The translations under genes and the position numbers were made by a program. This document shows, one piece after another, positions 9,932 through 25,132 of a DNA stretch of 41,622 nucleotides; the first letter of the stretch is position 1; every line of letters begins with the position of its first letter. The DNA lies in the IMG/VR virus record IMGVR_UViG_3300032080_000011, positions 1 through 41,622 of that record, one strand, 5' to 3'. The stretch comes from a virus. Below the pieces are notes generated by a model. The model did not search any database. It saw only the letters and a list, made by a program, of their open reading frames with translations, and had not been told where the DNA came from.

Positions 9932-10012
9932 TCCTCTAATTACTACCCCTTAGACACTTCAATAGAGAAAGACCCTGGACACCCTGGACAACACCCCCTG
10001 ACCAGCGCAAAA

Positions 10013-10046: not shown

Positions 10047-10106
10047 GCCTGGCCACCCTGGCCAGGGTGTTGGCGCGTCAGTGCAGGTCAGAGCGTTTCC
10101 GTGTCA

Positions 10107-10185: not shown

Positions 10186-10200
10186 CCCCAGGAGAGTGGC

Positions 10201-10491: not shown

Positions 10492-12774
10492 CTACACCAC
10501 CGTGCAGCCCACTCCGGTCAGTAGCTGCACGCGCTTGCCCTGCACGCGCACCCGTTCCGCTTTCAGGCCCGGAACTTTCTGCCGCAGGTCCCGGGCGAAC
10601 ACCTCGAGCGTGGTCCGGTCCAGGCTCCTGCCCTGGGTCTCGCACCAGCCCTGATACTTGGCGAACAGGTGGTCCAGCCCGATCGAGTGCTCGGCCCCGA
10701 CATAGCACCAGTCCTCGAGGAACGTCCCGATCGGGTCGGACAGCCGGCGCATGCTCTCGGCCTCGGCCGCCCCGGACTCGGGCACGGTGAACGACCCGCG
10801 CCCGTTCAGCCGCTCGAGGCCGTCCAGCGCCCAGTTGAGGATGCCGGGCAGTTCCTCGATCAGTTTCTCGGTCAGCGCGGTGTCTTCCCGGCCCAGGAAT
10901 GACCGTTCCAGCTTGAGCACGATCATTTTCTTGGCCAGCGCCCCGGACCGGTCGGAGAACGTCGGCGTCTCGTTGCTCATGAGCATCACCCGGGCGCCGA
11001 GCCGGCCGGTCCATGCCGCCCGGTTCTTGCGGTGCACCGTTGGCATGTCCTCGCCCACGATCTCCAGCAGCACCGGCACGGCGTCGCCGATGGTCCGGGT
11101 GTTCCACCGCACGTCTCCGCAGACCGCCAGCATCTTGCCGATCAGCGGCTCGAGGCCGAACGTGCCGCCGAGGTGGGACAGGTTCAGCCCGGCGGTGGCG
11201 TGCTGCCCGATCATGGCCGTGAGCACCCGGGCGATGGTGCCCTTGCCGGACCGCGGTGGGCCGATCAGGGCGGCCATGCGATGCAGGTGCATCCGCCCGG
11301 ACAGCACGTAGCCGAACCACTCGCCCAAAAAGTCGTGCGCCTGCCGGTCGCCGGGCAGGATCGCCTCGAGGAAGGCCAGCCAGGCTGGGCAGGCCGCGTC
11401 GGGCTGGTACGCGAACGGCAGGGCATGCAGGTTGAACCGCGAGGGCGCGTGCGGCTTCTCGGTACGCGTGGCCGAGTCCAGCACCCCGCTGGCGGTGGCG
11501 ATGCCGCCCACGTCCGGGTCGCCGAACCGGCTCAGCACGCCCCGGCTCAGCGCGTGCGCCAGGTCATTGATCTTCCGGGTGGTGGGCGCCCAGGGTTTCG
11601 GTACGACCTCGCCGTCCTTGTCCTCGGTCAGGAACACCGCGTCGGCGGTCTGCGTGTATAGCCAGCGCTGCAGGGCGGCCTCGGGCTCCACCGCCCAGTG
11701 CGTTCCGGTCCAGGCGTAGAAGTCGCCCTCCCACCAGGCCCGGTGCACCTCGCCCTCGGTGTGCTCCATACGGCCCACCAGCTCGCGCGCCACCGCCATG
11801 GGATGCCCGGGTGGGGGCAGGACGTCCTGGGCGCTCTCCGGCGATCCTGTGGCCGCCGCGGGGCCATCCCCGTTCACCTTGACCGCGGTCCAGGACCGCC
11901 CGGCCTCGGTCGCCGAGTAGGCCGAGTCGATGGTCTTGCGGTCGGCCTCGTCCGGTTCGGTCCAGCCGGTGGCCGGGCCCAGTGCCTTGATGACCAGTCG
12001 GGCGCACCGGCCACGGTCGACCAGCCACGGGAAGTGCGCGCACGCCATGGCGAAGGAGTTGATGGCACCGTTGTACCGCCCTGGCTGGGCCTCGCCGAGC
12101 TTGGCCAGGGCGTCCTTGATGAAGGCCATGGCCTGCGGGTCGGTGAACTCGCGGGCCGGCTCGTCGTAGAAGTCGTCCGCCTTACCGGTGGCCGCCGCCG
12201 GGACCGCGGCTGAGCTCGGCGCGGGGGCCCGCTTCGCGCGCATCCGCTCGATGACCACATCCGGCACGGTCGGCAGGTCGAGCCAGGGGAGCCGAACGGC
12301 CCACGTGTAGCCCGCGGTCGGTGGCGCGATGACGAACCCGCCGAGGCCGCGAACGTCCACCTGACCGGCCACCGTGCCGTCCTGATCGTTGCCAATCGGG
12401 TGCCGGTCGTGCTCGCGGAAGTAGTAGTGCTTCCCGCCGCTGACGGTGCGCGCCACCGCCGTTGACCCCCGATACAGCTCGGCCCAGTTGGTCATGCCCT
12501 CGGTGCCGTCGCAGTCGATCACCACGAGGTGGCTCTTGCCGCAGTCGATGCCGAGGCCGGCGCCGCGGTGCTCGCCGTCGGGGCCCCACCAGGCGGCGAT
12601 GTCCGCGGCGCTGGTGGTGGAGATCTGCCGCCATTTGCCGGCCGGCTGGACGTCCTTTTTGCCGTCCGCCTTCCGTTTCACATAGACGGGAAACACGTAA
12701 ATCCCCGCGTTTGCGTACGCGAGGGCAGACGTGAACGGTTCTTCGATGTCACGCTGGTCGGCGTGATCGCTCAT
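10492..12774 (-). CDS. Bifunctional prim-pol / SF3 (D5-like) primase-helicase
   Basis: A 760-residue replication protein. The N-terminal prim-pol domain has the metal-binding DCD in VVIDCDG (residues 87-89) and the SGGKHYYF motif (112-119). A linker with another helical region follows. The C-terminal D5_N/SF3 helicase has Walker A GPPRSGKGT near 500 and downstream sensor-like MLMSNETPTFSD. This architecture starts replication in many phages, plasmids and actinomycete integrative elements (RepPP type). ATG 12774 has a strong ribosome site (AAGGAGA). It is transcribed from a promoter near 12930 through a structured leader of about 140 nt. Confidence 0.92.
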   Translation of the reverse strand: MSDHADQRDIEEPFTSALAYANAGIYVFPVYVKRKADGKKDVQPAGKWRQISTTSAADIAAWWGPDGEHRGAGLGIDCGKSHLVVIDCDGTEGMTNWAELYRGSTAVARTVSGGKHYYFREHDRHPIGNDQDGTVAGQVDVRGLGGFVIAPPTAGYTWAVRLPWLDLPTVPDVVIERMRAKRAPAPSSAAVPAAATGKADDFYDEPAREFTDPQAMAFIKDALAKLGEAQPGRYNGAINSFAMACAHFPWLVDRGRCARLVIKALGPATGWTEPDEADRKTIDSAYSATEAGRSWTAVKVNGDGPAAATGSPESAQDVLPPPGHPMAVARELVGRMEHTEGEVHRAWWEGDFYAWTGTHWAVEPEAALQRWLYTQTADAVFLTEDKDGEVVPKPWAPTTRKINDLAHALSRGVLSRFGDPDVGGIATASGVLDSATRTEKPHAPSRFNLHALPFAYQPDAACPAWLAFLEAILPGDRQAHDFLGEWFGYVLSGRMHLHRMAALIGPPRSGKGTIARVLTAMIGQHATAGLNLSHLGGTFGLEPLIGKMLAVCGDVRWNTRTIGDAVPVLLEIVGEDMPTVHRKNRAAWTGRLGARVMLMSNETPTFSDRSGALAKKMIVLKLERSFLGREDTALTEKLIEELPGILNWALDGLERLNGRGSFTVPESGAAEAESMRRLSDPIGTFLEDWCYVGAEHSIGLDHLFAKYQGWCETQGRSLDRTTLEVFARDLRQKVPGLKAERVRVQGKRVQLLTGVGCTVV

Positions 12775-12807
12775 ATCCTGTAATCTCCTTGCCTGAGTCG
12801 ATCACTT

Positions 12808-12850
12808 GAGGCCGGTGCTCCTGTGGGGGAGCGCTGGCCTCACTGTTTTT
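12808..12850 (+). terminator. Hairpin in the primase leader; terminator-like on the plus strand
   Basis: GAGGCC (12808-12813) to GGCCTC (12836-12841) form a 14-position stem with two mismatches and a short loop, followed on the plus strand by ACTGTTTTT. On the minus strand the same stem sits in the 5' leader of the primase mRNA, about 34 nt before the start codon. It may block antisense transcription or regulate the leader. Confidence 0.55.
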
Positions 12851-12926
12851 CGGGTGAGTCCTCCCATGATTCGCGCGTAGCGCCGGGGTGTAGGGAGCAA
12901 CGCCGTAGGGCCGCTCCGGATAGCTG

Positions 12927-12935
12927 ACTATAACA
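12927..12935 (-). promoter_or_regulatory. Extended -10 promoter TGTTATAGT for the primase
   Basis: Minus-strand TGT-TATAGT with no start codon close by. The first good start is ATG 12774, giving a leader of about 140 nt that includes a stable hairpin and an AAGGAGA ribosome site. It diverges from the promoter at 13074. Confidence 0.65.
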
Positions 12936-13073
12936 GAGGATAACCCTGAGCACCCGACCTCGGCGGGCCGCGCCCGGTGGATCACCCCCGCTGGTCAGGC
13001 CGCGATCAACGTGCGCACCCGGGGTGCCCCGTGGGGGTCGCCCGTTCGGCCGAGACACCCCTCCCGGCTCATA

Positions 13074-13082
13074 TGCTATAGT
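13074..13082 (+). promoter_or_regulatory. Extended -10 promoter TGCTATAGT of the replication operon
   Basis: TGCTATAGT at 13074-13082, then CGTGGT, then ATG 13089: the start codon is 6 nt past the hexamer. It likely drives the overlapping genes from 13089 to 16814 and beyond. Confidence 0.8.
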
Positions 13083-13088
13083 CGTGGT

Positions 13089-13403
13089 ATGGAGATTACG
13101 GGAAACTCGGTCGCTGACGCGATCCTCTCGGTCTACGCGGCCAACGATGCAGGCGCCTGCCACGCGGTCACCGCGCCGGACAGCGCCACCAACCCCGACC
13201 CGGCCCGGCACGGCGCCTGTGAGTCGCAGGCCGCGCTGGGCTGTACCCGAATCGGTTCGTTGCGTGTCCTGCCCGAATCGCTGGCGCCGGGCGGCGAACC
13301 GGAAAGCATCCTTCAATGCATGCCCTGCTACAACTATTCGGCCCTCCGGCTCACGGCCACGATGGCGAGCCTCGCCGAGCTGGACGGGCAGGTCACGCGA
13401 TGA
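13089..13403 (+). CDS. Cys-containing small protein, first gene of the replication operon
   Basis: A 104-residue protein starting MEITGNSVADAILSVY, leaderless from the 13074 promoter. Five cysteines occur at spacings that could bind a metal (ACHAV, GACES, LGCTR, LQCMPCY). An N-terminal helix and a C-terminal helix (LRLTATMASLAELDG) flank them. Stop overlaps the next start (ATGA), so translation is coupled. No family recognised. Confidence 0.65.
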   Translation: MEITGNSVADAILSVYAANDAGACHAVTAPDSATNPDPARHGACESQAALGCTRIGSLRVLPESLAPGGEPESILQCMPCYNYSALRLTATMASLAELDGQVTR

Positions 13404-13699
13404 CCGAGCCGAGCGTGCTGGACCTGGCCACGGACATCGAGGCCTTGGGCGCCACCGTGGAAGCGGTGGTGACCACTCTGACTACCGAGTGCATCCACGG
13501 CACCCCCACCGAGCCGGACCGCTGCCTGGTCGCCAACTACTTGACCAAGCTCGGGTATGCCGACGTCGAGGTGTGGAAGGACACGAACAACCGCCTGCGG
13601 ATCTCCGCCGGTGATGACGAGATCCTGGCTCCCGACCAGATCGTCATGCTCGTGGACGCGTTCGACGCCGGGCAGTACCCCGGCCTGCAAGCCCGATGA
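13400..13699 (+). CDS. Small protein of unknown function
   Basis: A 99-residue acidic protein starting at ATG 13400 inside an ATGA overlap. It begins with a coiled helix (VLDLATDIEALGATVEAVVT), then ECIHGTPTEPDRC, and a strand-rich second half (LGYADVEVWKDTNNRLRISA, ILAPDQIVMLVDAF). No recognisable domain. Its end overlaps the XF1762-like gene. Confidence 0.6.
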   Translation: MTEPSVLDLATDIEALGATVEAVVTTLTTECIHGTPTEPDRCLVANYLTKLGYADVEVWKDTNNRLRISAGDDEILAPDQIVMLVDAFDAGQYPGLQAR

Positions 13700-14172
13700 G
13701 CATGGTTCTGGTCCCGGTCACCTTCCGGCAGGCGTGCGAGTTCGTGACCAAGACCCATCGTCATCACCCGGCCCCGCGGGGTTGGCGGTTCGGCGTCGGG
13801 GTGACGGACGCGAGCGGGCAACTGCGTGGCGTCGCCATGGCGGGCCGGCCGGTGGCTCGGGCCCTGGATGACGGGCGCACGGTCGAGGTGAACCGGACCT
13901 GCACAGACGGAATGGCTAACGCGAACTCGATGCTGTACGGCGCCGTCTGGCGCGCCGCCAAGGCGCTCGGCTACGTCCGGGCCATCACGTACACGCAGGA
14001 AGGCGAGTCGGGCGCCAGCTTGCGCGCAGCCGGGTGGGTACTGGACTCCGTACTCGACCCCCGGCCGACGTGGGCCGAGTCCAGCGTGAAGCTGCGGCAC
14101 ATCCGAGATGGCGACAGTCAGGCCGGTGGCGTGACTCGGATGCGCTGGCGCATCACGGCCGGCAGCCCGTGA
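13696..14172 (+). CDS. XF1762-family, GNAT-like protein
   Basis: A 158-residue protein with the pattern of the XF1762 family, which is related to GNAT acetyltransferases: an N-terminal HRHHPAPRGWRFGVGV segment, GVAMAGRPVARALDDGRTVE, VNRTCTDGMANANSMLYGA and a C-terminal AITYTQEGESGASLRAAGW. Such proteins are common in actinophages and mobile elements. Their substrate is unknown. Start ATG 13696 overlaps the previous stop. Confidence 0.82.
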   Translation: MSMVLVPVTFRQACEFVTKTHRHHPAPRGWRFGVGVTDASGQLRGVAMAGRPVARALDDGRTVEVNRTCTDGMANANSMLYGAVWRAAKALGYVRAITYTQEGESGASLRAAGWVLDSVLDPRPTWAESSVKLRHIRDGDSQAGGVTRMRWRITAGSP

Positions 14173-14372
14173 TCCACCGGGCCGCTGTGGCGGTCTTCTA
14201 CCTCGCCGCCGCCTGCTGGTCGGGCCTGGCCATGCATCTGTCCGACGCGCGCCTGCTGGTCCCGGCCGGCGGCTGCGCCCTCACCGCCGTGGTGGTCGAG
14301 TGGATCACCATCCGGGAGCTTCACCTACAACACCAGATCAGGCAGCACTCGAAAGGACGGACCCGCAAGTGA
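14169..14372 (+). CDS. Small membrane protein
   Basis: A 67-residue protein beginning at GTG 14169 in a GTGA overlap. Two hydrophobic segments are evident (AAVAVFYLAAACWSGLAM and LLVPAGGCALTAVVVEW), followed by a basic cytoplasmic-type tail (HQIRQHSKGRTRK). Its end overlaps the following gene's GTG start. Function unknown. Confidence 0.6.
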   Translation: MIHRAAVAVFYLAAACWSGLAMHLSDARLLVPAGGCALTAVVVEWITIRELHLQHQIRQHSKGRTRK

Positions 14373-14770
14373 CCACACAAACCGAGCACCTGGTGCTCAA
14401 CATCGTTCTCAACTGGCGCGCCGACACCCGGCACACCGACGAGCTCATCGCCGCCGCGGACCTGCTGGCCGCCGAGCGGGACAACCGGTACGCCGAGCTG
14501 GAGCTGACCTTCGGCCAACTGGTCACCGGCGACTCCGTCCAGTCGATCAACGGACGCTGGTACGAGGTGGACCGGATGGTCGTGGAGCAGGACCAGACCG
14601 GCGTGAAGGTGTGGCTCAAGGGCGTGGCCAAGCCCTTGGAGAAGTACACCGGTCAGTCGGTGCTGGTGCGCCGCTCCGAGATGGGCAAGGCGGCGGACGT
14701 GCTGGCCTCGGTGCTGTGGTCCGGCCCGGCGGCGCCCCCGGCGCGGGTCCGCGTGGATGATGCAGCATGA
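14369..14770 (+). CDS. Small protein of unknown function
   Basis: A 133-residue protein starting at GTG 14369. It has an N-terminal helical region (DTRHTDELIAAADLLAAERD), then a strand-rich barrel-like section (ELTFGQLVTGDSVQSINGRW, YEVDRMVVEQDQTGVKVWL) and a basic segment ending near residue 113. The middle part could be an SH3-like or OB-like fold, which would suit nucleic-acid binding, but this is a guess from pattern only. Coupled to its neighbours by overlaps on both sides. Confidence 0.6.
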   Translation: MTTQTEHLVLNIVLNWRADTRHTDELIAAADLLAAERDNRYAELELTFGQLVTGDSVQSINGRWYEVDRMVVEQDQTGVKVWLKGVAKPLEKYTGQSVLVRRSEMGKAADVLASVLWSGPAAPPARVRVDDAA

Positions 14771-15030
14771 GCGAGTACGACGAGCTCATCAATGAGCTAC
14801 TCTCCGGCGCGCCCGAGTCCTGGGATGGTGACGAAGCCGCGTCGCTGACATCACTAGAGCAATCCCATAGCGCCCCGGGTAACCGGGAGGCCGGCCCCGC
14901 CACAACCGCGGGGGTGACCCCGCCCGAACCGGCGGCCACCCGGCGCAAGGGTGGGGGTGGCCCCGGCCAGGACCTGATGGCGGCGCTCAAGGAATCCCTT
15001 GACCGGGCGCGTCGGCGGCGCGAGTCATGA
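14767..15030 (+). CDS. Small linker-like acidic/basic protein before the helicase
   Basis: An 87-residue protein. The first 30 residues are acidic (MSEYDELINELLSGAPESWD), the middle is low-complexity (TTAGVTPPEPAATRRKGGGG), and the end is a basic helix (AALKESLDRARRRRES). It overlaps the helicase start by four bases. It may be an adaptor for the helicase, judged only from position. Confidence 0.6.
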   Translation: MSEYDELINELLSGAPESWDGDEAASLTSLEQSHSAPGNREAGPATTAGVTPPEPAATRRKGGGGPGQDLMAALKESLDRARRRRES

Positions 15031-16814
15031 GCATCCACCTGCGCGAGTACCAGCGCGCCGCCATCGATGCGTGCTGGGAGGCCCTGTCCCCGGACGTCAA
15101 CCGTGTAGCTACGGAGATGGCTACGGGCCTCGGTAAGACGATCACATTCGCGGCGGCCATCGATGAGTGGCTGGAGCGCCAGTACCCGCAGGGCCGCGCC
15201 GAGCAATGGCAAGGCGGATGCGCCCTGGTGCTCGTGCACACCGATGAGCTGGTACGCCAGGCCGTGGACAAGATCCGCCTGGTGACCCGGGGGCGCTGGT
15301 CGATCGGCGTAGTTAAGGCGGCCGAGGACGAGACGGACGCGGACATCGTGGTGGCCAGCGTGCCGACCCTGGCGAACTTCGAGCGCCGGTGCCGGATCCA
15401 GGGTGTCGGCCTGATCGTGGTGGACGAGTGCCACCACGCCGTGGCCCCGTCGTACCGGGCCATCCTGGAGCACTTCGGGGCCCTGTGCGCCCACGCGGCC
15501 ACCGGCTCGTGCTCGGGCTGGCCGTACTGCGAGGCCGCCCGCACCCCCGTGCTCGGCTTCACGGCCACCCTGGTGCGCTCCGATGGTCAGGGCCTGGGCC
15601 GGGTGTGGCAGGACTTGGCGTACTCCCGGGGCATCTCCTGGGCCATCCGCAAGGGCTACCTGGTGGACCTGGCCGCGTACCGCATCGAGGTGCCGGACAT
15701 CGACGCCGGGGCCTCGGATGCGGCGCTGGACGCGATGCTGTGCGACTCGATCGCGCCCGAGGCGGTGGTCGATGCCTGGATGCGCAACGCGGCCGAGATG
15801 GATCTGACGGCCAAGGTGTGGACGAAGTACCCATCCACGGTTCTGTTTGCCCCGCTGGTCAAGAGCGCTCAGACGTTCGCCGACGCGTTCAACCAGGCCG
15901 GCATCAAGGCCGAGGTGGTGCACGGCGCGCTGCCCGGCGCCGAGCGCAAGGCCATCCTCGAGCGCTACGAGGCCGGGGTGACCACCGTGGTGTGCAACGC
16001 CATGGTGCTGACCGAGGGGTGGGACTCGCCGCGGACCAAGTGCGTGATCGTGGCCCGGCCCACCAAGAGCGTCCCGCTGTTCGTGCAGATGGTCGGTCGC
16101 GGACTGCGGCCCTGGCTCGGCCCGGACGCGCCGCCGCGCGAGGACCAGCGCTGCGTGCTGCTGTGTGTAGCCGACTCGACTACCACCCTGGCCACCATCG
16201 CCGATCTGTCCGACAAGCGGATCGAGGCGGTGGACGGCGCGTCGCTGATCGCGCTCGAGGATGAGTGGGACATCGGCGCGGACCTGATCGCCGAGACCGA
16301 TCGGGCGTACGCCGGCCCGGTGGTGGCGCGCGAGTTCGATCCGCTGGTGGCCCGCTCTTCCAAGGTGTGGGCGTTTACCGACGCCGGCATCCCGTTCCTG
16401 CCGATCGGCAAGGCCCCGGACTACGTGTTCCTGGTGCTCGAGGGCGACCGGTGGTCGGTGTTCCACTACGCCGGTGGCACCGGTGCTCGGCGCATCCTGC
16501 CCGGCATCCCGGACCTCGAGCTGGCGATGGCACTGGCCGAGGACGAAGCCAACGACCGTGGCGGTGACGTCGGCCGGCTGTTGGCGGACAAGAACCGTCC
16601 GTGGCGCCGGGAGCGGCCCTCGATGAATCAGATGGAGATGGCGGTCGCGGTCGGGATTCCGGTCCGCTACGTGGAGCAGATCTTGAACTCGCCGCGCGGC
16701 GGGAAGGCCGGCCGGCTCGCCGACATGATCACCAAGGCGAAGGCGTCGCGCCGGTTGGACCCGATGGTGGAACGCATCCACGCGCGGGCTGAAAGTGTCG
16801 TAGGTCAGTCGTAG
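15027..16814 (+). CDS. SF2 DNA helicase
   Basis: A 595-residue superfamily 2 helicase of the type III restriction/UvrB-like class, used in phage replication or recombination. Motif I is ATGLGKT (residues 32-38), motif II DECH (133-136), motif III-like FTATLVRSDG (about 175), and motif VI QMVGRGLRPW (about 352). A Cys-containing insert (SCSGWPYCEAAR) sits before motif III. The last 150 residues extend past the helicase core and end in a basic helical region. ATG 15027 overlaps the previous stop. Confidence 0.9.
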   Translation: MSIHLREYQRAAIDACWEALSPDVNRVATEMATGLGKTITFAAAIDEWLERQYPQGRAEQWQGGCALVLVHTDELVRQAVDKIRLVTRGRWSIGVVKAAEDETDADIVVASVPTLANFERRCRIQGVGLIVVDECHHAVAPSYRAILEHFGALCAHAATGSCSGWPYCEAARTPVLGFTATLVRSDGQGLGRVWQDLAYSRGISWAIRKGYLVDLAAYRIEVPDIDAGASDAALDAMLCDSIAPEAVVDAWMRNAAEMDLTAKVWTKYPSTVLFAPLVKSAQTFADAFNQAGIKAEVVHGALPGAERKAILERYEAGVTTVVCNAMVLTEGWDSPRTKCVIVARPTKSVPLFVQMVGRGLRPWLGPDAPPREDQRCVLLCVADSTTTLATIADLSDKRIEAVDGASLIALEDEWDIGADLIAETDRAYAGPVVAREFDPLVARSSKVWAFTDAGIPFLPIGKAPDYVFLVLEGDRWSVFHYAGGTGARRILPGIPDLELAMALAEDEANDRGGDVGRLLADKNRPWRRERPSMNQMEMAVAVGIPVRYVEQILNSPRGGKAGRLADMITKAKASRRLDPMVERIHARAESVVGQS

Positions 16815-16844
16815 CGTGCAAGTCGTAGAAAGGACGGATAGATC

Positions 16845-17186
16845 ATGACAGCAGCGGAATTCACGGAGACGATTGTCGAGGCCGATGACGCTGGCTTCCG
16901 GGTCCTCGACGCCATGTCGCACGGTGGGCCGTGGGTCTTCCTGGCGGCCAAGAATCGCGGGGATGACGGCCTCGCCATTGAGGCCCAGGCCGGCGGCGGC
17001 ATCACCAGCACGGGAATGGTCCGCAACATGCTCCGCAAGGCGCTGGACGCACTCCCGGCCGAGGTAGACCTTGACCTCGACGCGGTCGACGTCGCCGTCA
17101 CCGCGACCGGCATGTTGTACTGCCTGAGCTGCACGCCCCCGTCCCCGTCGTGCACCAACGATCACCACCAGGGAGCCCGGTCGTGA
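16845..17186 (+). CDS. Small protein of unknown function
   Basis: A 113-residue protein with a good ribosome site (GAAAGGACGG) before ATG 16845. The sequence alternates strands and helices (AGFRVLDAMSHGGPWVFLAA, VRNMLRKALDAL, DLDAVDVAVTATG) and ends in a Cys/His-rich tail (CLSCTPPSPSCTNDHH). No family recognised. It begins a second coupled run of genes that leads to the exonuclease. Confidence 0.6.
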   Translation: MTAAEFTETIVEADDAGFRVLDAMSHGGPWVFLAAKNRGDDGLAIEAQAGGGITSTGMVRNMLRKALDALPAEVDLDLDAVDVAVTATGMLYCLSCTPPSPSCTNDHHQGARS

Positions 17187-17434
17187 GATCCAGCGACGTG
17201 AAGCTGGCGCAGGTCCTGCTCGACCTCGACCGGTGCCAGCACGGCCGGCACTCGAAAGACCCGTGCCTGTCGTGCCCGGGCGGGCAGTCGCAGGGCAACA
17301 CCCTTTCGCGGCCCGGACAGCAGATCGGGTTCGGCCTCGACGGTACCCTCATCGTCGTCCCGGAGCCCGGCGACCGGTACGACGCCGACGCGTGGCGGCG
17401 ACCCCGACCGGCCGCCGGCGGTGAACCGCGGTGA
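17183..17434 (+). CDS. Small protein with Cys/His motif
   Basis: An 83-residue protein from GTG 17183 (GTGA overlap). It carries a compact motif, CQHGRHSKDPCLSCPGG, that could hold one zinc ion, followed by a strand pair (QIGFGLDGTLIVVPEPGD) and a basic Pro/Arg-rich end. Function unknown. Confidence 0.6.
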   Translation: MRSSDVKLAQVLLDLDRCQHGRHSKDPCLSCPGGQSQGNTLSRPGQQIGFGLDGTLIVVPEPGDRYDADAWRRPRPAAGGEPR

Positions 17435-18605: not shown

Positions 18606-18668
18606 GGTAAAGAGCGCGCCACCCCACAATTCCCATTCCACGGACTCGGGCAAGGAGAAACCCAGACA

Positions 18669-19175
18669 ATGACCGATCACACCGACGACGACTTCTTCGA
18701 TGACGCGAAGAGCGAATTCCCGGACAAGGAAGACCTCAAGGACCGACTGGTCGCCATCTTCGCCATCGGCCCGGTCGGGCAGCGCAAGAGCGAGGCGTCC
18801 GGCAAGGCGTACGACTACGTGGAGACCGTGACCGTGGTCCTGGACAACGGCCCGGACGGCACCTCGCACTCCGAGCTGGTGCCCGAGGTGGAGGGTCTAC
18901 CGGTCGTGCTGCATGGCTTCCAGTGGTCCGCCTCGGGGGTCGTGGCCCGGACCAAGCCGCGGGTCGGCACCGAGCTGGCGTTGCGCCCGGTGGTTGGTCG
19001 AATCAACTCGATGCCGAACCGGCGCAAGGGATTCTCGGACGCCTGGTCGATCGCCGAGCCGACCGACGACGATCGTCGTATCGTCCGGGATTTCCGGGTC
19101 AGCCTGCTCAAGATCCGCGATGACATCGTGGCGGCGCGCGAGCGCAAGGACGACCTGGAACCCGAGTTCGCCTAA
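18669..19175 (+). CDS. Probable ssDNA-binding / recombination partner protein
   Basis: A 168-residue protein with AAGGAGA 14 nt before ATG. It has an acidic start (DDDFFDDAKSEFPDKEDLKD), a strand-rich core (RLVAIFAIGP, YVETVTVVLDNG, LPVVLHGFQWSASGVVAR) and a conserved-looking RRKGFSDAWSIAEPTDDD before a C-terminal helix. The pattern resembles actinophage proteins annotated as ssDNA-binding. Position directly after the exonuclease supports a role in recombination or replication. It has its own promoter and is followed by a terminator, which suggests strong expression. Confidence 0.65.
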   Translation: MTDHTDDDFFDDAKSEFPDKEDLKDRLVAIFAIGPVGQRKSEASGKAYDYVETVTVVLDNGPDGTSHSELVPEVEGLPVVLHGFQWSASGVVARTKPRVGTELALRPVVGRINSMPNRRKGFSDAWSIAEPTDDDRRIVRDFRVSLLKIRDDIVAARERKDDLEPEFA

Positions 19176-19186
19176 GATCACAATCC

Positions 19187-19232
19187 GAGGCCCCGCGCAC
19201 GCCCATCCCTAGCTGGGCAACCGCGGGGCCTC
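19187..19232 (+). terminator. Two-stage hairpin terminator
   Basis: GAGGCCCCGCG (19187-19197) pairs with CGCGGGGCCTC (19222-19232), with a smaller GCCCA/TGGGC stem nested inside. It begins 11 bases after the ssDNA-binding gene. There is no T tract. Confidence 0.65.
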
Positions 19233-19259
19233 ACCAGTTCGCGAGAAAGGGGCACCGGT

Positions 19260-19448
19260 ATGGACGACCACTGGATCCGTGGAACTACGGACCCTGCTAC
19301 CCACCCGGTGCCCGACCCGGCCGTCACGCCGGCCGTACAGGTGACCGTGACCATCCCGGGCCGTGAGCCGTTGGTGCTGCTAGCGCCGATGTGGTGCGAC
19401 GTGATGTCCGCGGACGGCGGTCTGCGGGTGGAGGTGTCCTGGCCGTGA
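19260..19448 (+). CDS. Small protein of unknown function
   Basis: A 62-residue protein with GAAAGGGG before ATG 19260. It is Pro/Thr/Val-rich and strand-like (AVTPAVQVTVTIPGREPLVL, GGLRVEVSWP). Its end overlaps the next gene's start by four bases. No family recognised. Confidence 0.55.
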   Translation: MDDHWIRGTTDPATHPVPDPAVTPAVQVTVTIPGREPLVLLAPMWCDVMSADGGLRVEVSWP

Positions 19449-19687
19449 TCACCGACCTGCAGGCGATGCAGTGGGAGGTTGCCGCGGCCATCGTGCTGAC
19501 GACCTTTGCGGTGGGTCTGGTCTTCTGGTGGGCGCTGCTGGAGTGGTGGGACCGGCGCACCGCCCGGCGCCTGGCCAAGCCGGTGGCCCGGCACTCCCGG
19601 CACGCGATGGGTCAGCGCACGCAGCACATCGATCCGGGCCGGTACCGCCGACCGGACTCGCTGGCGGACGTGGACAGGCAGTCGTAG
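19445..19687 (+). CDS. Small single-pass membrane protein
   Basis: An 80-residue protein from GTG 19445 (GTGA overlap). One transmembrane segment (AAAIVLTTFAVGLVFWWALL) is followed by a long basic tail (WDRRTARRLAKPVARHSRHA). Positive charge on the C-terminal side suggests the tail is cytoplasmic. Function unknown; it ends the plus-strand cluster just before a strong terminator. Confidence 0.6.
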   Translation: MITDLQAMQWEVAAAIVLTTFAVGLVFWWALLEWWDRRTARRLAKPVARHSRHAMGQRTQHIDPGRYRRPDSLADVDRQS

Positions 19688-19719
19688 GCTCGGCCGCAGC
19701 GCTCAACTCATGGATCACG

Positions 19720-19752
19720 GAAATGGCCCCGACCAGTGGTCGGGGCCATTTC
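19720..19752. terminator. Perfect 16-bp bidirectional terminator palindrome
   Basis: GAAATGGCCCCGACCA (19720-19735) is the exact reverse complement of 19737-19752 around a single base. It lies between a plus-strand gene ending at 19687 and a minus-strand gene ending at 19777, so it serves both. Confidence 0.8.
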
Positions 19753-19776
19753 GCGTGTCTCGGGTCTCGGAGGGAT

Positions 19777-19914
19777 CTAGCGGAACAGTTCCGCGTATTC
19801 GGCAGCCCGGCGCAGCAGTTCCCCGTTCTTGGCGCCGCCCTTGCCCTGTTCCTTGGCGCCGTCCTTGCCGCCGCCTTTGCCCTGTTCCTTGGTGGTGCCC
19901 TTGGCTGTGGCCAT
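19777..19914 (-). CDS. 45-residue Lys/Gly repeat peptide
   Basis: A short gene with its own promoter and ribosome site (GGGAGAGGGAC before ATG 19914). The product has a Lys/Gly/Gln tract with a tandem repeat, KEQGKGGGKDGA followed by KEQGKGGAKNG, and a short amphipathic C-terminal helix (ELLRRAAEYAELFR). It looks disordered and basic, so nucleic-acid or peptide binding is possible. Its leader resembles that of the neighbouring gene at 20297. Confidence 0.7.
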   Translation of the reverse strand: MATAKGTTKEQGKGGGKDGAKEQGKGGAKNGELLRRAAEYAELFR

Positions 19915-19940
19915 GTCCCTCTCCCGTCATCGGTACCTCA

Positions 19941-19949
19941 ACTATAACA
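19941..19949 (-). promoter_or_regulatory. Extended -10 promoter TGTTATAGT
   Basis: Minus-strand TGT-TATAGT ending 26 nt before ATG 19914. The short leader carries the purine-rich ribosome site GGGAGAGGGAC. Confidence 0.7.
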
Positions 19950-19967
19950 GGCATGCGCCGTCTGGGG

Positions 19968-20297
19968 CTACAGGTACGAGGCGGAACCGAGGATCATGCG
20001 CGCCAGCTCGGCGAGGTCGGCGTACTGGTTCTCGATCCCGGCCTCGTCATCGTCGCCCCATCTACCCTCGTACGCCTTCGCGTAGATGATCTCGTGCTGC
20101 TTCGCGGTCAGCTCGTACCCGTGCTTTTCGAACATCTGGTTGGAGTGCGCGGCGTACTCGTTGGTCCGCTTCTGCGCGGCCTCGGCAGCCTCGGCGGCGG
20201 CGGCCTGATCGGCGAGCGCGTCCGCCCGGTTCTGCGCCTCTTCGGCGGCTTGGATGGCGGCCTCGGCCTGCGCCCGGAGTTCCTTGGCTGTGAGCAT
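19968..20297 (-). CDS. Coiled-coil small protein
   Basis: A 109-residue protein starting MLTAKELRAQ at ATG 20297, with GGACGGGAGAGGGAC upstream. In-frame ATG 20321 is only 2 nt from the promoter hexamer and is less likely. Residues 1-50 are an Ala/Glu/Arg coiled coil (AEAAIQAAEEAQNRADALAD). The second half (GYELTAKQHEIIYAKAYEGR, ADLAELARMIL) is helical. No family recognised. Confidence 0.65.
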   Translation of the reverse strand: MLTAKELRAQAEAAIQAAEEAQNRADALADQAAAAEAAEAAQKRTNEYAAHSNQMFEKHGYELTAKQHEIIYAKAYEGRWGDDDEAGIENQYADLAELARMILGSASYL

Positions 20298-20323
20298 GTC
20301 CCTCTCCCGTCCTCGATACATTG

Positions 20324-20332
20324 ACTATAGCA
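20324..20332 (-). promoter_or_regulatory. Extended -10 promoter TGCTATAGT for the 20297 gene
   Basis: Minus-strand TGCTATAGT followed by a leader of roughly 20 nt carrying GAGGACGGGAGAGGGAC. It is back-to-back with the TGGCCA array and the plus-strand promoter at 20405. Confidence 0.75.
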
Positions 20333-20338
20333 GAGGTA

Positions 20339-20399
20339 TGGCCAGTGGCCAACCCTCGCTGGCCAACTTTCTGGCCACGCCTGGCCACACGTCTGGCCA
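20339..20399. repeat. Array of six TGGCCA sites upstream of the SpdB-like gene
   Basis: TGGCCA starts at 20339, 20346, 20360, 20372, 20382 and 20394: six copies in 61 bases, between two divergent promoters. TGGCCA continues at high density in the following coding region. It could be a binding site for a regulator or for the neighbouring FtsK/TraB-like translocase. Confidence 0.7.
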
Positions 20400-20404
20400 T
20401 CCTC

Positions 20405-20413
20405 TGCTATAGT
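20405..20413 (+). promoter_or_regulatory. Extended -10 promoter TGCTATAGT of the SpdB-like gene
   Basis: TGCTATAGT at 20405-20413, then 7 nt, then ATG 20421. A leaderless start is predicted. Confidence 0.8.
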
Positions 20414-20420
20414 CGTGGAC

Positions 20421-21359
20421 ATGACCGATACCTTGCCCACCACCCCGCCGGCCTGGCCACTGGCCAAGGCACTGGCCAACCTGTGGACCAACTCTGTGGC
20501 CTACGTGGCCCTGCTGGCCAGCGCCGGACTGTCCATGGCCGGCAACGTGGCCGATGTCCTGCGCACCCGTGGCCACGCGATCGACGGCCTGGACGTGGCC
20601 ATTGCCGTGGCCATGCCGGCGCTGGTCGTGCTGGCCGTGCACATGTTCGTGTCCCCGCGCTGGGACGGCCTGGCCTGGCCCATGCAGACGCTGCGCTGGG
20701 CCGGCTGTCTGGCCATCGGCGGGATGGCCATGTTCGTGTCCTGGTTCCACCTGCATGACCTGCTCGTGGCCAGGGATCAACCGACCGCGGCCACCATCCT
20801 CGAACCCCTCGCGCTGGATGCCATGGCCGTGATGGCCACCGCGCTGCTGCTGGCCGGTCGGCGCACCGTGGCCACCGCCGCGACCCTGGCCGAGCTCGGC
20901 GAGTTACAGGCCCGTGTCCTGGCCATGGACACGCAGGTGGCCACCCTGAGCAACACCCTGGCCAGCGAGCGGCGCCAGGCCACCCGGCGCAATGGCCAGT
21001 GGCCCGAGGACTGGCTGGCCGACCAACCAGTCCACCGCAACGAACGTGGCCAGTGGGTAGCCGATGACCTGGCCACGCCCACGGTGGCCAACGGCGTTGT
21101 CCACGAGGCCGAGACGATCCTGCGCCTGGCCGGTCTGCCCACGGCCGAGGACCTGGCCAACCGCCCGGATCGGCTCGGCCGACTGGTCAGTGGCCCGGAC
21201 AAGCCGGTGGCCATCCCGGAAGGCGTGGCCGAGCTGGTCGAGCGGATGACCAACGCCGGCGCCACGGTGGCCGAGCTGAATGAGGCCATCGCCGAGGCGT
21301 ACGAGGTGAGCCTGCGGACTGCGCGCCGGTGGCGTGGTCAACTCAAGGGCGGCGAGTAG
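20421..21359 (+). CDS. DUF2637/SpdB-like membrane protein with C-terminal HTH
   Basis: A 312-residue protein. The first half has four hydrophobic segments (VAYVALLASAGLSMAGNVAD, AIAVAMPALVVLAVHMFV, WAGCLAIGGMAMFVSWFHL, DAMAVMATALLLAGRR), the DUF2637 pattern found in actinomycete plasmid spread/transfer proteins. The soluble second half ends in a probable HTH (ATVAELNEAIAEAYEVSLRT, then ARRWRGQL). In mycelial actinomycetes such proteins act with a TraB translocase, and an FtsK/TraB-like gene lies next to it on the other strand. The coding sequence is strikingly rich in TGGCCA. ATG 20421 is preferred over GTG 20415 because of the promoter spacing. Confidence 0.75.
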   Translation: MTDTLPTTPPAWPLAKALANLWTNSVAYVALLASAGLSMAGNVADVLRTRGHAIDGLDVAIAVAMPALVVLAVHMFVSPRWDGLAWPMQTLRWAGCLAIGGMAMFVSWFHLHDLLVARDQPTAATILEPLALDAMAVMATALLLAGRRTVATAATLAELGELQARVLAMDTQVATLSNTLASERRQATRRNGQWPEDWLADQPVHRNERGQWVADDLATPTVANGVVHEAETILRLAGLPTAEDLANRPDRLGRLVSGPDKPVAIPEGVAELVERMTNAGATVAELNEAIAEAYEVSLRTARRWRGQLKGGE

Positions 21360-21371
21360 TCCCAGCACGGC

Positions 21372-21416
21372 AAACGGCCCCCTCTGTGAATGTGACTTCG
21401 CAGGTGGGGGCCGTTT
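21372..21416. terminator. Bidirectional terminator between SpdB-like and FtsK-like genes
   Basis: AAACGGCCCCC (21372-21382) pairs with GGGGGCCGTTT (21406-21416) between two convergent genes. On the plus strand the stem ends in GTTTCG. Confidence 0.75.
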
Positions 21417-21463
21417 CGCGCGCCCGCAGCGGGACGACTAGGAGCGCATTCGCCAGCGTAGCG

Positions 21464-23245
21464 TCAGGCGTCCGGATCGTCGCCCCGCTTGAGCGCCAGC
21501 CACTCGTATAGGTCATCCAGGCGGTACAGCTTCGCGCCTTTCTCGCCGGTGCCCATCTCGTCGGGGAAGTTCCGGCCGTCGCGCTGGGAGTGCAGCCGGA
21601 GCGCACTGAGGGTGTACGGCACTTCCTCGAGCTCGGAGAAGTCACGCAGGGTCACGTATTCCTCGGTGCTGTCCTGCGCCGATGCAGCGGCATCCCAACT
21701 GGGGAATGTAGGTACATCGTGCCGCTGCATCATCACCCTGACGTCCAGCAGTCGATCACCGCCGGTAGCGAACGCGATTAACCGTTCGGATTCCATCTTG
21801 AGGTCCGGGTAGGCGGCCTGGAACACCGTGGCGGCGCCGGCCACGACGTAGCCGAACCGGCCCGGCTTGCTACTGATGGCCGGCTTTTTCATCGCGGTGC
21901 CGCCGACCAGTCGCCATGCACCCACCGGCAGCCGTCCGGCCAGGGCGAACGCGCCGAAGTTGTTCCGGGAACCGATGTCTGCCTTGGTCACCTCCTGGGC
22001 GGCGAGCACCACGTTGATGCCGAACGACCGGCCCATGCTGGCCAGGCGGTCCAGGGCGGCCAGGGCCGGCGCCCGCATCGGCGCACCGGTGGGCCGGGTG
22101 GCCAGCCAGTGATCCCGGATGACCGTCTGCAGGCTGTTGCGTTCCTCGAGGACAACCACGATCCGGTCAAAGGTCGGCTCAGGTTCGCCCGCGTCGGCGC
22201 ACCGGGCGGCCTCGCCGCCGCGGCGGCGCAACTCCATGTCCAGCCACAGCACAGTGTCGTGGATCATCTGCGCCTCGCGGCAGTACAGCGTCTCCGGGAT
22301 CCGGGCTAGCCAGCCGTGGCTGACGTACTTGGGGTCGAGCACCACCGTGCCGGCGCCGCCGTTCATGAACTGCGCGACGATCCAGGCCATCAGTTCACTC
22401 TTGCCCGAGCCGGACCCCCCGCCGATACCGATGTGCGGGCTGTCATCGCCGAGGTCCCAGAACACCGGGCCAGCAGCGGCCATGCCCAGGAACGGCCGGG
22501 TAGTGCTGGCGTACTGCAGCATGGTGTGCCAGTCGACCAGGGCCGGCGGTTGCGGCGGGGTCCACAGCTCCATGTACGGCTTGGCGCCCTCCATGTTCCA
22601 CCGCGCGTCGAGCGCCTCGTGGCCGAGTCGTTCGCGCACGACGTCCAGCAGGCGGTCCCGGTCGCCCTCGTGGACCTGGTTGGGCGGCAGCCCGATACGG
22701 CCGGTGGCGGTGACGTCGGCGCCGCGGACCATGCCGCGGGGGATGTCCACGTAGATGCCGTCGCGGGTGCGCAGCACCGCCCAGGCGGCCTGCCGGATCG
22801 GCCTGAGGTAGTTGCGCTCGTGGGCGTAGTTCTGCACGTAGCGCACGCCGGCCAGCGCGCCGTAGCCGAGGATCGGCGTCCATGCCACGCCCGGCGCCCA
22901 GGTGTCCAGCCACCACGGGTCGCGCAGGCCGAGGTAGTCGGTGCCGGCGCACACTGCGGTCCAGGGCAGCAGGCCGAACGCGGGCAGCCGGGTCATCAGT
23001 AGACCGCGTTTCCAGCCGGGCCAGTAGTTGTACGCGGCAGTGTGGCCGCTGACGGTGAAGGCCTGGGTGCCGGCGTGCCAGAACGTGGCGTCGGTGCGGG
23101 CGTGGCCGTCCAGCGGGCGCCCGGTGAGGAACCGGTACGCGAACGCGGTCTTGGCGTAGCGGCCCAGCAGGACCGGGATCGGGTCCTCGGAGGTGGCCCG
23201 CCAGGCGGTATCGGGTGCGTCAACGTCGAGGAAGGTGCCGGTCAT
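21464..23245 (-). CDS. FtsK/SpoIIIE/TraB-like DNA translocase
   Basis: A 593-residue ATPase. Walker A is GGGSGSGKSEL at about 272-282 and the Walker B-like strand is RIVVVLEE at about 360, where Glu replaces the usual Asp. FASTMGRSFG-like LASMGRSFGINVVLAAQEVT further on is the usual FtsK/HerA sensor region. Two hydrophobic stretches near 80-130 may be membrane segments. The C-terminal 90 residues (LYRLDDLYEWLALKRGD) form an extra helical domain that could recognise DNA. Such ATPases pump double-stranded DNA; in actinomycete plasmids the relative TraB moves DNA between hyphae. ATG 23245 has AAGGGAC upstream. Confidence 0.85.
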   Translation of the reverse strand: MTGTFLDVDAPDTAWRATSEDPIPVLLGRYAKTAFAYRFLTGRPLDGHARTDATFWHAGTQAFTVSGHTAAYNYWPGWKRGLLMTRLPAFGLLPWTAVCAGTDYLGLRDPWWLDTWAPGVAWTPILGYGALAGVRYVQNYAHERNYLRPIRQAAWAVLRTRDGIYVDIPRGMVRGADVTATGRIGLPPNQVHEGDRDRLLDVVRERLGHEALDARWNMEGAKPYMELWTPPQPPALVDWHTMLQYASTTRPFLGMAAAGPVFWDLGDDSPHIGIGGGSGSGKSELMAWIVAQFMNGGAGTVVLDPKYVSHGWLARIPETLYCREAQMIHDTVLWLDMELRRRGGEAARCADAGEPEPTFDRIVVVLEERNSLQTVIRDHWLATRPTGAPMRAPALAALDRLASMGRSFGINVVLAAQEVTKADIGSRNNFGAFALAGRLPVGAWRLVGGTAMKKPAISSKPGRFGYVVAGAATVFQAAYPDLKMESERLIAFATGGDRLLDVRVMMQRHDVPTFPSWDAAASAQDSTEEYVTLRDFSELEEVPYTLSALRLHSQRDGRNFPDEMGTGEKGAKLYRLDDLYEWLALKRGDDPDA

Positions 23246-23313
23246 GTGCTGTCCCTTGGCAAGGTGTACGTCCCTACATCTACACGATAACGTATTTCGT
23301 TTACGATGTGGTG
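23246..23313. promoter_or_regulatory. Divergent control region between FtsK-like gene and 23314 gene
   Basis: A short AT-rich spacer. On the plus strand TACGAT (23302-23307) precedes ATG 23314 by exactly 6 nt, matching the leaderless spacing seen elsewhere. An inverted repeat AACG-TATTT-CGTT (23289-23301) at its centre could be an operator. The ribosome site of the translocase (AAGGGAC) is at its left edge. Confidence 0.5.
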
Positions 23314-23478
23314 ATGACGCAACGTTCCCGCGAAGAGCGCCAGGCCCAGACCGCGGCGGCCACCTACGCCCGGAGGGTGACCCGGTGGTCCCGGCTGACC
23401 CTGGAGCTGCAGGCCGAGGGGTTCCAGGTGACCGCCCCGCCCGAGGTTCGCGCGCACCCGCGCTGGACGGCCGGGTAG
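23314..23478 (+). CDS. 54-residue basic protein
   Basis: A small protein, MTQRSREERQAQTAAATYAR at its start, highly basic and helical, ending in EVRAHPRWTAG. ATG 23314 is chosen by the 6-nt distance from a TACGAT hexamer; the longer upstream frame runs into the opposite-strand gene. It diverges from the translocase and may regulate it, given its basic helical character, but no DNA-binding motif is certain. Confidence 0.55.
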   Translation: MTQRSREERQAQTAAATYARRVTRWSRLTLELQAEGFQVTAPPEVRAHPRWTAG

Positions 23479-23483
23479 ACCTC

Positions 23484-23492
23484 TGCTATAGT
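23484..23492 (+). promoter_or_regulatory. Extended -10 promoter TGCTATAGT of the small-gene operon
   Basis: TGCTATAGT at 23484-23492, 6 bases after the previous stop. No start codon lies 6-7 nt downstream. The leader runs to GTG 23518 or, more likely, GTG 23584. Confidence 0.75.
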
Positions 23493-23583
23493 CGAGTTAT
23501 AAGGTGGGGCCGGGCACGTGGCAGAGATCCCCGTCCGGCTCTTCCCGCAAGACCCAGATTCCAGCGAGGACGGGAGCACGCAC

Positions 23584-23712
23584 GTGGCGAAGACCGAGGC
23601 CGACATCTACCAGAAGATGTCGGACATGTTCCGGCGACCGAAGCCGGTGACGAAAGCGGAGATGGACGCCTATAAGGCGAAGCACCCGGAGTGGTACGGC
23701 AAGAAGTCCTGA
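23584..23712 (+). CDS. Small basic protein
   Basis: A 42-residue protein, MAKTEADIYQKMSDMFRRPK at its start, ending HPEWYGKKS. GTG 23584 is chosen because GAGGACGGGAG lies 8-10 nt upstream, the same ribosome-site sequence used by the genes at 20297 and 23791. GTG 23518 would add 22 residues but has a weaker site. The stop is followed two bases later by a 52-bp repeat. Function unknown. Confidence 0.6.
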   Translation: MAKTEADIYQKMSDMFRRPKPVTKAEMDAYKAKHPEWYGKKS

Positions 23713-23713
23713 G

Positions 23714-23765
23714 GGTTTCTATCGGCGCTCGGCCTCACATTCGGGCGCCGGTGGTGACCGCCAGG
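23714..23765 (+). repeat. 52-bp intergenic repeat, copy 1
   Basis: Identical to 23885-23936 except for one base (C versus T at the eleventh to twelfth base). Each copy starts one or two bases after a stop codon and ends about 24 bases before a start codon. It contains GGTGG-TGA-CCGCC and GGCGC/GCGCC pairings, so a conserved RNA structure in the leader is likely. Confidence 0.8.
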
Positions 23766-23790
23766 GTGGCGGCGAGGACGGGAGTACGAA

Positions 23791-23883
23791 ATGGGCAAGG
23801 TCGCGAAGGCGTTCAAGCGAATCGCGTTGCGAATCAAGTGCGCGAAGTGCGGCAACTCCGTGGCGCATTGCAAGTGCGATTGA
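23791..23883 (+). CDS. 30-residue zinc-ribbon-like peptide
   Basis: A very short gene with ribosome site GAGGACGGGAG before ATG 23791. The product has a basic helix (MGKVAKAFKRIALRIK) followed by a compact Cys motif, C17-x2-C20, then C27 and C29 with H26 between (CAKCGNSVAHCKCD). This is a plausible one-zinc knuckle. The 52-bp repeats lie on both sides, which supports it as a real expressed unit. Confidence 0.65.
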   Translation: MGKVAKAFKRIALRIKCAKCGNSVAHCKCD

Positions 23884-23884
23884 C

Positions 23885-23936
23885 GGTTTCTATCGGTGCT
23901 CGGCCTCACATTCGGGCGCCGGTGGTGACCGCCAGG
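23885..23936 (+). repeat. 52-bp intergenic repeat, copy 2
   Basis: Second copy of the leader repeat, with a single base difference from 23714-23765. It precedes the ribosome site GAAAGGACGGAAC of the gene at 23960. Confidence 0.8.
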
Positions 23937-23959
23937 ACGGCGGCGGAAAGGACGGAACA

Positions 23960-24100
23960 ATGGCCAAGAAAATGGGCCAGGTAAACGAGAACACCGGCAA
24001 GGTGGAAACCCGCAAGGTGGGTCGAGCCAAGACCACGGCCATTCCGTGGACGGTGTACGACACCAGGGCGAAGCGCGCCTGGCGCAATCTGGTGGGCTGA
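23960..24100 (+). CDS. 46-residue basic protein
   Basis: A small basic protein starting MAKKMGQVNENTGKVETRKV and ending DTRAKRAWRNLVG. Ribosome site GAAAGGACGGA lies before ATG 23960. The next gene begins one base after its stop. Its N-terminus resembles the MAKT/MGKV starts of the two preceding small genes. Function unknown. Confidence 0.65.
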   Translation: MAKKMGQVNENTGKVETRKVGRAKTTAIPWTVYDTRAKRAWRNLVG

Positions 24101-24101
24101 C

Positions 24102-24656
24102 GTGAATCCGAAACGCTGGGCGCGCAAGGTCCGCCGCCGCAAGCCCGGCATCTACCTGGCCCGGACGGAGCAGCACGCCCGTCCGGGCCGGTACGAGAAC
24201 GGGTACGTGGGCCGGTCGGTCAACGTGCACATCCGCACCGACCAGCACCTGGGCCGGCTCGGCTACTCGGCCACGATCGGCCGGTCGCTGGCCGCCTCGG
24301 TCAAGGCCGGGCAGCCGCTCGTGGTGATGGCCGGTGGCAAGCCGTGGGCCGACCTGGCGCCGCGCTGGTTCTACCTGCGCCTGCCGTGGTGGCTCGGCTG
24401 GACCTGGATCCTGGCGCCGCTCGAGGCGCTGGCCATCCTGCTACTGGCCCCCCGCTACAACGACCGGCTCAATCGGTGCAACCCGCGCCGGGTGCCGATC
24501 TGGCAACAGCACGCACAGCGCCGCCAGCGCGACGCCGGCACCGTGGGCATGCGGATGCGCCGAGCCGGCGTCCGGTGGGCGTTCACCGCCACCCGGGTTG
24601 CAGGCCTGGCGCTCATCTTCACCGGCCTCACCGGCTGGTACCTGACCAGCCACTGA
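24102..24656 (+). CDS. GIY-YIG nuclease-like protein with C-terminal membrane anchor
   Basis: A 184-residue protein starting at GTG 24102. The GIY-YIG pattern is complete: G16-I-Y in KPGIYLAR, YVG at 35-37 in NGYVGRSV, R45 and H49 in HIRTDQH, a candidate catalytic Glu E108 in APLEALAIL, and N120 in APRYNDRL. The stretch before E108 is unusually rich in Trp and Leu (WFYLRLPWWLGWTWIL). A clear C-terminal transmembrane helix (VAGLALIFTGLTGWYLTS) suggests anchoring at the membrane. A membrane-bound nuclease beside SpdB- and TraB-like genes hints at DNA processing during transfer or entry exclusion. Confidence 0.7.
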   Translation: MNPKRWARKVRRRKPGIYLARTEQHARPGRYENGYVGRSVNVHIRTDQHLGRLGYSATIGRSLAASVKAGQPLVVMAGGKPWADLAPRWFYLRLPWWLGWTWILAPLEALAILLLAPRYNDRLNRCNPRRVPIWQQHAQRRQRDAGTVGMRMRRAGVRWAFTATRVAGLALIFTGLTGWYLTSH

Positions 24657-24676
24657 ACTCCACGTAAGGACGGGAC

Positions 24677-25132
24677 ATGAACCAGCCACACAACCTGCCG
24701 ACCCAGTACCGGCCGCGATCGCACCGGGCCAACACCGAGCTCGACCGGTTCCGGCCCCTGCCGCCGGCCCAGGTCACCATCACGCACCCCTCGGACCACC
24801 AGCTCATCGCTGAGGTCCGGGCCGGGCAGCGGCGCGGCGTGTACGGCGAGGACTCCGGCGTGCACCGCACCCCGAAGGGGTTGTACGCGGTCAAGGTGGT
24901 CCAGCTCAAGGCGCCGGCCCCGCGCTGGCGCAAGCCGGTCATCATCGCCGCAGTGGCGCTCGCCGCGTTCGCCGCGGCGGGCGCGCTGATCTGGGCCGCG
25001 GTGTCGGCGCTCGCCTCGGCCATCCCGCCGGCCGTGGTCGGCGGGGCGATCCTGGTTGGCATCCTGCTGACCGCCGGTACCGTCGGCGGCGGCCGGGTTG
25101 TGGACGTGTTGGTGCGGGTGAGGGTCAAGTAG
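24677..25132 (+). CDS. Two-pass membrane protein, possible spread protein
   Basis: A 151-residue protein with AAGGACGGGAC before ATG 24677. A polar N-terminal half (about 75 residues) is followed by two transmembrane segments (VIIAAVALAAFAAAGALIW and AVVGGAILVGILLTAGTV) and a short basic end. Small two-pass proteins of this build are typical of Spd (spread) genes in Streptomyces plasmids, but no specific homology can be claimed from sequence alone. It follows the GIY-YIG gene by 20 bases and is followed by a terminator. Confidence 0.6.
   Translation: MNQPHNLPTQYRPRSHRANTELDRFRPLPPAQVTITHPSDHQLIAEVRAGQRRGVYGEDSGVHRTPKGLYAVKVVQLKAPAPRWRKPVIIAAVALAAFAAAGALIWAAVSALASAIPPAVVGGAILVGILLTAGTVGGGRVVDVLVRVRVK

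Follow-up and report, generated by a model that had tools for sequence, protein, structure and literature searches.

A conserved phage cassette of a DUF2637-like membrane protein, a plasmid-related DNA translocase and a GIY-YIG nuclease, with an array of TGGCCA sites

Introduction

What use would a phage have for a DNA pump of the kind found on plasmids? The question arises from a single virus record, IMGVR_UViG_3300032080_000011, whose 41,622 nt we analyzed at full length and refer to as the window. To our knowledge, the passage of phage genomes across the septa of a hyphal bacterium is little understood, and the three named genes and six-letter site described here make it possible to ask by experiment whether phages move DNA at the membrane in the manner of plasmids.

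An initial annotation of the window had joined a prim-pol, a DUF2637-like membrane protein, a TraB-like translocase, a GIY-YIG nuclease and a two-pass membrane protein into a replication and transfer module of actinomycete plasmid type. Open reading frames and family searches confirmed that all five genes are real and lie where they had been placed. The composition of the module did not hold up, as the prim-pol falls outside the conserved unit and the translocase is not TraB.

Among the plasmid systems that invite comparison, TraB recognizes 8-bp clt repeats and SpdB2 is a membrane protein that binds both DNA and TraB (PMC4170104; PMC12857230), while SpdA2 has a palindrome within its own gene and affects segregational stability (PMC4170104). 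Streptomyces plasmid-phages that carry transfer genes have been described before (pZL12, PMC3583192), and the general idea is not new. What appears to be new, within the sequence collections compared, is this cassette, the constancy with which it is kept and the array of sites that goes with it.

The genome, its host and its clade

A direct terminal repeat of 126 bp (positions 2-127, plus strand) is identical to positions 41497-41622, and the genome therefore closes on itself at ~41.5 kb; it is complete, and either circular or circularly assembled. It encodes a terminase, portal, maturation protease, HK97-type capsid, head-tail adaptor and tail proteins, in line with the HK97-type virion cassette that had been described for it. 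Only 37 isolated phages have a match to the large tail protein at 28192 (36 from Streptomyces, one from Thermobifida), and this restriction makes a filamentous actinomycete of the Streptomyces type the likely host.

A terminase scan supplied 80 relatives, and 46 related virus records were then searched. The translocase was present in 11/46 of these (the larger near-group records, G001 and G045), and a profile scan added two further carriers, G047 and G048. The clade set thus comprised 14 genomes, the window and 13 relatives, which are uncultured viruses, probably of thread-forming soil bacteria.

A three-gene cassette in constant order

The genes for the DUF2637-like protein, the translocase and the GIY-YIG nuclease stand in one order in 14/14 clade genomes, and because it is kept in every one of them this order is beyond chance. 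The DUF2637-like gene was found in 13/13 phage relatives, and the nuclease likewise. Wherever the contigs of the 14 genomes extend far enough, the wider order of helicase, exonuclease, DUF2637-like gene, translocase, GIY-YIG nuclease and tail genes is also constant, with the translocase on the strand opposite to its neighbors except in G001 and G047. Scanning with a nuclease profile brought in no new clade members; hold-out genomes came from a helicase scan, and the DUF2637-like profile was too divergent to serve as a query.

The prim-pol does not belong to this unit. The gene (10492-12774, minus strand) encodes a P4-family prim-pol/SF3 replicase with a Prim-Pol domain (E 8e-24), D5_N and a P4-family primase C-terminus (E 6e-48). 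Among the 46 related records it had two strong matches and one weak one, and only one of the 13 clade relatives (G014) carries it, others having a different primase or polymerase. It had been taken as a mark of an integrative conjugative element or plasmid module, a role not borne out by the distribution of its relatives, which occur in 413 plasmids and about 1,000 phage records. Judged by these relatives, it is an ordinary phage or plasmid primase, a replaceable replication gene outside the cassette.

The translocase and its plasmid relatives

The translocase (21464-23245, minus strand) is a putative FtsK/HerA-superfamily DNA translocase of pRL2-11/TcpA-like type, with an N-terminal motif, a membrane hairpin, an ATPase and a C-terminal winged helix. 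Family scores were low: DUF87 was matched at E 2e-5, and PF01580 at 16.3 bits, under the cut-off of 24, while pIJ101 Tra scored 38.8 against PF01580. The structural model comprises a helical membrane hairpin at residues 77-158, the ATPase core and the C-terminal winged helix. Residues G279, G281, K282, E367 and E368 are invariant in the motor, so that Walker A is intact and the acidic Walker B residues are present.

The window translocase matched none of 50,697 phage records, but it matched 52 actinomycete plasmids, 48 of them from Streptomyces. It therefore has the plasmid relatives that the initial annotation had predicted, and a confinement to ordinary lytic-phage families was not what we found. 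A profile built from the phage proteins alone aligned with the pRL2-11 plasmid proteins over almost their whole length (299-373 bits, profile positions of about 14-596), whereas pIJ101 Tra was not detected by it at E<=10. In profile-profile comparison (hhalign), TraB aligned to the translocase through the ATPase core only. We therefore rejected the identification with TraB; by these alignments the translocase belongs to the pRL2-11 plasmid family over its full length.

That family, annotated as "DUF87 domain-containing" on plasmids of Streptomyces and Pseudonocardia, shares with the phage proteins full-length homology at 27-33% identity, the N-terminal G-x-x-L-x-G...RTDATF motif, the hairpin, the ATPase and the winged helix. 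Our literature search found no function described for the plasmid pRL2-11 protein. In the tree, the plasmid translocases fall between two phage lineages, which argues that the genes have been exchanged. The plasmid proteins differ from those of the clade in their surroundings, as no DUF2637-like or GIY-YIG partner lies beside them in the four plasmids and three host genomes examined; other phage-clade genes were absent from the plasmid and host loci save for one weak match. One plasmid neighborhood holds a MobF relaxase and a replication-relaxation protein.

The nearest solved structure by both profile (E 4e-14) and fold (E 2e-15) is TcpA, the conjugation coupling protein of pCW3, with FtsK next. 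Unlike TcpA, the phage motor has the additional N-terminal motif and winged helix, and no type IV secretion genes or relaxase were recognized among the scanned phage proteins. The winged helix resembles lambda gpNu1 in a weak match (E 0.1), whereas that of pIJ101 Tra is MarR-like.

The membrane protein and the nuclease

The DUF2637-like gene (20415-21359, plus strand, with an ATG start at 20421) encodes four predicted membrane helices, a linker and a C-terminal helix-turn-helix (HTH) at about residues 265-314. Its match to DUF2637 (PF10935; E 2e-4) scores 21.5 bits, against a curated score of 22.8, and 7/11 relatives match the family at E<=0.1, the best at 1.8e-5. The model has four long helices, placed with moderate confidence in the membrane part, and a three-helix C-terminus with pLDDT >90. 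The plasmid kinship expected of this gene did not materialize, as tblastn returned no plasmid relatives; pIJ101 SpdB had no Pfam match.

The third cassette gene (24102-24656, plus strand) is kept in 14/14 clade genomes and encodes a GIY-YIG-type nuclease that ends in a hydrophobic tail, a predicted membrane helix. The window protein alone matched no family, and 4/12 nuclease relatives matched PF01541 weakly, the best at 0.0064. Across 12 aligned relatives, G16, Y18, Y35, G37, R45, H49, E108 and N120 are invariant, and conservation of G-x-Y, Y-x-G, R, H, E and N upholds its earlier description as a GIY-YIG nuclease. No solved structural relative was found. The two-pass membrane protein that follows (24677-25132, plus strand) has few and weak clade relatives and appears to be accessory.

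An array of TGGCCA sites

The hexamer TGGCCA was first noticed through a repeat search, recurring around the DUF2637-like gene. The window holds 88 TGGCCA sites (variant TGGACA), and 27 of them form an array at 20339-21213, 21 inside the gene and six just upstream. The upstream six lie in a 93-bp region between divergent genes (20322-20414), with the arms of a perfect 14-nt inverted repeat on either side (20323-20336 and 20401-20414). A second, non-coding cluster at 9847-10200 contains six TGGCCA and two TGGACA sites, with perfect palindromes of 34 bp (10013-10046) and 16 bp (10054-10069) that both bear sites; it is a candidate origin or packaging region.

Shuffling the synonymous codons of the DUF2637-like gene 200 times gave a mean of 5.7 sites and a maximum of 11, against the 21 observed (z 8.4). 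When all hexamers were counted in this gene versus the remaining genome, TGGCCA ranked in the top 20 in 12/12 discovery genomes and first in six of them, and TGGACA was often enriched too. In the hold-out genomes G048, L234, L236 and L237, TGGCCA ranked first or second (P 2e-16 in L234, 4e-27 in L236), and hold-out L230 has the TGGACA form of the array. The translocase gene, too, is rich in sites in several relatives.

Genomes of the cassette clade have about 1-4 sites per kb, versus 0.29-0.55 in the controls, namely plasmids, host contigs, isolated Streptomyces phages and terminase relatives without the cassette. Plasmids bearing a pRL2-11-type motor showed no TGGCCA excess. Measured against an order-4 Markov model, the excess over whole genomes is modest for all but the window, which is also the only one with a strong excess in non-coding DNA (18 sites versus 1 expected); the argument is carried by the local clustering and by the codon shuffling. 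For the cassette genes, the signal withstood the synonymous-codon, Markov and local-versus-rest nulls, the controls and the hold-outs, and we rejected an artefact of codon usage or base composition.

Two clade genomes, G001 and G047, lack the array. Their DUF2637-like proteins are sisters in the DUF2637 tree and bear another C-terminal HTH, and their translocases group with that of the window (85% support). The presence of sites thus seems to go with the membrane protein, or with the remainder of the genome, rather than with the motor. The winged helix of the translocase is disfavored as the site reader, as the window and G047 have sister translocases and of the two only the window has the array. 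The two exceptions form one lineage in the DUF2637 tree with divergent virion genes, so ancestry could explain the link between site and HTH. We infer that the DUF2637-like protein is the TGG(C/A)CA binder, and the site/HTH pair could represent a previously unknown kind of dispersed site for membrane docking.

The same observations could be read as gene control, with the DUF2637-like protein acting mainly as a membrane-bound transcription regulator that silences early phage genes from a TGG(C/A)CA operator, the task of the motor being unrelated. The six sites between divergent genes, with the perfect inverted repeat on their flanks, would suit an operator, and phage repressors can use many dispersed sites. 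Most of the sites, however, are inside coding sequence, where operators are unusual, and in several relatives this includes the translocase gene; moreover, in no genome are the three genes separated. We regard this reading as unlikely.

A proposed docking and pumping system

We favor a tentative reading, to which we give a probability of roughly 45%, in which the cassette is a phage-borne system for docking DNA at the membrane and pumping it, so that genomes are moved or distributed in the hypha. The computation gave the gene families, the conserved order, the motor's plasmid kinship, the site array and its link with HTH type; from these we infer the binder, the translocation, the cutting and the purpose. 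The DUF2637-like protein would sit in the membrane by its four helices and hold its HTH out on a long linker, and the HTH would bind TGG(C/A)CA within and upstream of its own gene and at dispersed positions, tying the phage genome to the membrane. With its membrane hairpin as anchor and a winged helix of its own, the pRL2-11/TcpA-like translocase would assemble into a ring and pump the phage genome, as double-stranded DNA, across the membrane or along it. At the docking place the DNA may be cut or resolved by the GIY-YIG nuclease with its membrane tail.

The purpose would most likely be to move phage genomes between hyphal compartments, or to keep them distributed, during infection. Of the two uses that the initial annotation had offered, we accordingly prefer an adaptation for moving phage genomes along hyphae. 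That a widespread clade of actinomycete phages should own a full conjugation-like machine, made of a membrane protein that reads dozens of TGG(C/A)CA sites, a plasmid-related pump for double-stranded DNA and a membrane nuclease, and should spread across the compartments of the mycelium free of virions beside lysis, we consider doubtful.

The other use was life as a phage-plasmid. The cassette would then maintain or spread an extrachromosomal prophage, partitioning it by membrane tethering in place of ParAB. The terminal repeat or circular genome would fit such a life, as would a motor common to plasmids, and an element of this kind, the plasmid-phage pZL12, has been described in Streptomyces (PMC3583192, PMC4487206). 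No tyrosine or serine integrase or resolvase was found in the window or in its 13 relatives, which bears out and extends the earlier statement that an integrase is missing, and ParA was absent from all 14 records; lytic phages, however, lack integrases too. Neither a repressor nor a plasmid replicon was recognized. A search of 395 actinomycete genomes for lysogens or plasmids carrying the cassette nuclease gave no relative (0/395), although the same query recovers the window. We judge the phage-plasmid reading quite unlikely.

It is very unlikely that the cassette acts at entry or exclusion, with the motor drawing the infecting genome in and the nuclease cutting competitors' DNA that lacks or bears the sites: two membrane-bound DNA enzymes do stand side by side, and a membrane nuclease would presumably meet incoming DNA, but the motor is synthesized after entry and could serve a late entry step at most, and no homologs of known exclusion systems turned up.

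As a docking and pumping system, the cassette would most resemble TraB/SpdB2/clt, and we propose that the two may be functionally alike while being built from other proteins. Both have a membrane FtsK-like motor with a DNA-binding end, a membrane DNA-binding partner and repeated short sites (PMC4170104, PMC12857230), DNA binding being a predicted property of the phage proteins. They differ in the motor subfamily, in the sites and apparently in the membrane protein, and the phage cassette adds a nuclease. The SpdA2/sps system of pIJ101 also pairs a DNA-binding protein with a palindromic site in its own gene (PMC4170104), but it has no described membrane anchor and one to three sites, as opposed to a membrane protein and tens of sites in the phage. 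The plasmid-phages pZL12 and pSLE1, likened here by description only, are Streptomyces elements that combine phage genes with transfer functions (PMC3583192, PMC4487206). Unlike the window, they are larger (pSLE1 is 86 kb) and have ParAB. We take pZL12 to be about 90 kb.

Results

A non-coding region of the window (9847-10200) contained palindromes carrying TGGCCA together with several CTAGACGGCTA-type inverted units, and is a candidate replication origin or packaging site. We also observed secondary clusters of TGGMCA (TGGCCA and its variant TGGACA) among the head-tail genes of several relatives, at 35251-36250 in virus record G045 and at about 40200 in G007, 23100 in G008 and 12600 in G002. 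In the relative G001, the gene for the DUF2637-like protein (3750-4562) had no excess of TGGCCA and was enriched for GGAGAC/CGGGAGAC instead; this is possibly another sign, for the different C-terminal HTH that the G001 protein carries.

The translocase was made up of two overlapping open reading frames in two relatives, G001 (locus L102, 4600-6450) and G002 (locus L105, 24650-26650). The N-terminal motif and first membrane stretch were encoded in one frame and the remainder in another, with the start codon of the second open reading frame overlapping the stop of the first. Either the gene has naturally undergone fission inside the membrane hairpin, or the split reflects a frameshift. At plasmid and host loci with a pRL2-11 motor, to which the translocase is related, a shorter second homologue, and sometimes a third, was often found just downstream of the motor (L133, L145, L154 and L184).

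Elsewhere in the window, an XF1762/Mom-like DNA modification gene (13696-14172, plus strand, E = 3e-57) had no relative among the other clade genomes compared. Degenerate tandem repeats of 60, 120 and 180 bp (37455-38142) lay inside an 860-aa open reading frame (36890-39472) without a family match. A glycosyltransferase-like protein, encoded on the minus strand across the record ends (40921-41622 with 1-232), was kept across the clade, with capsid and connector genes on either side.
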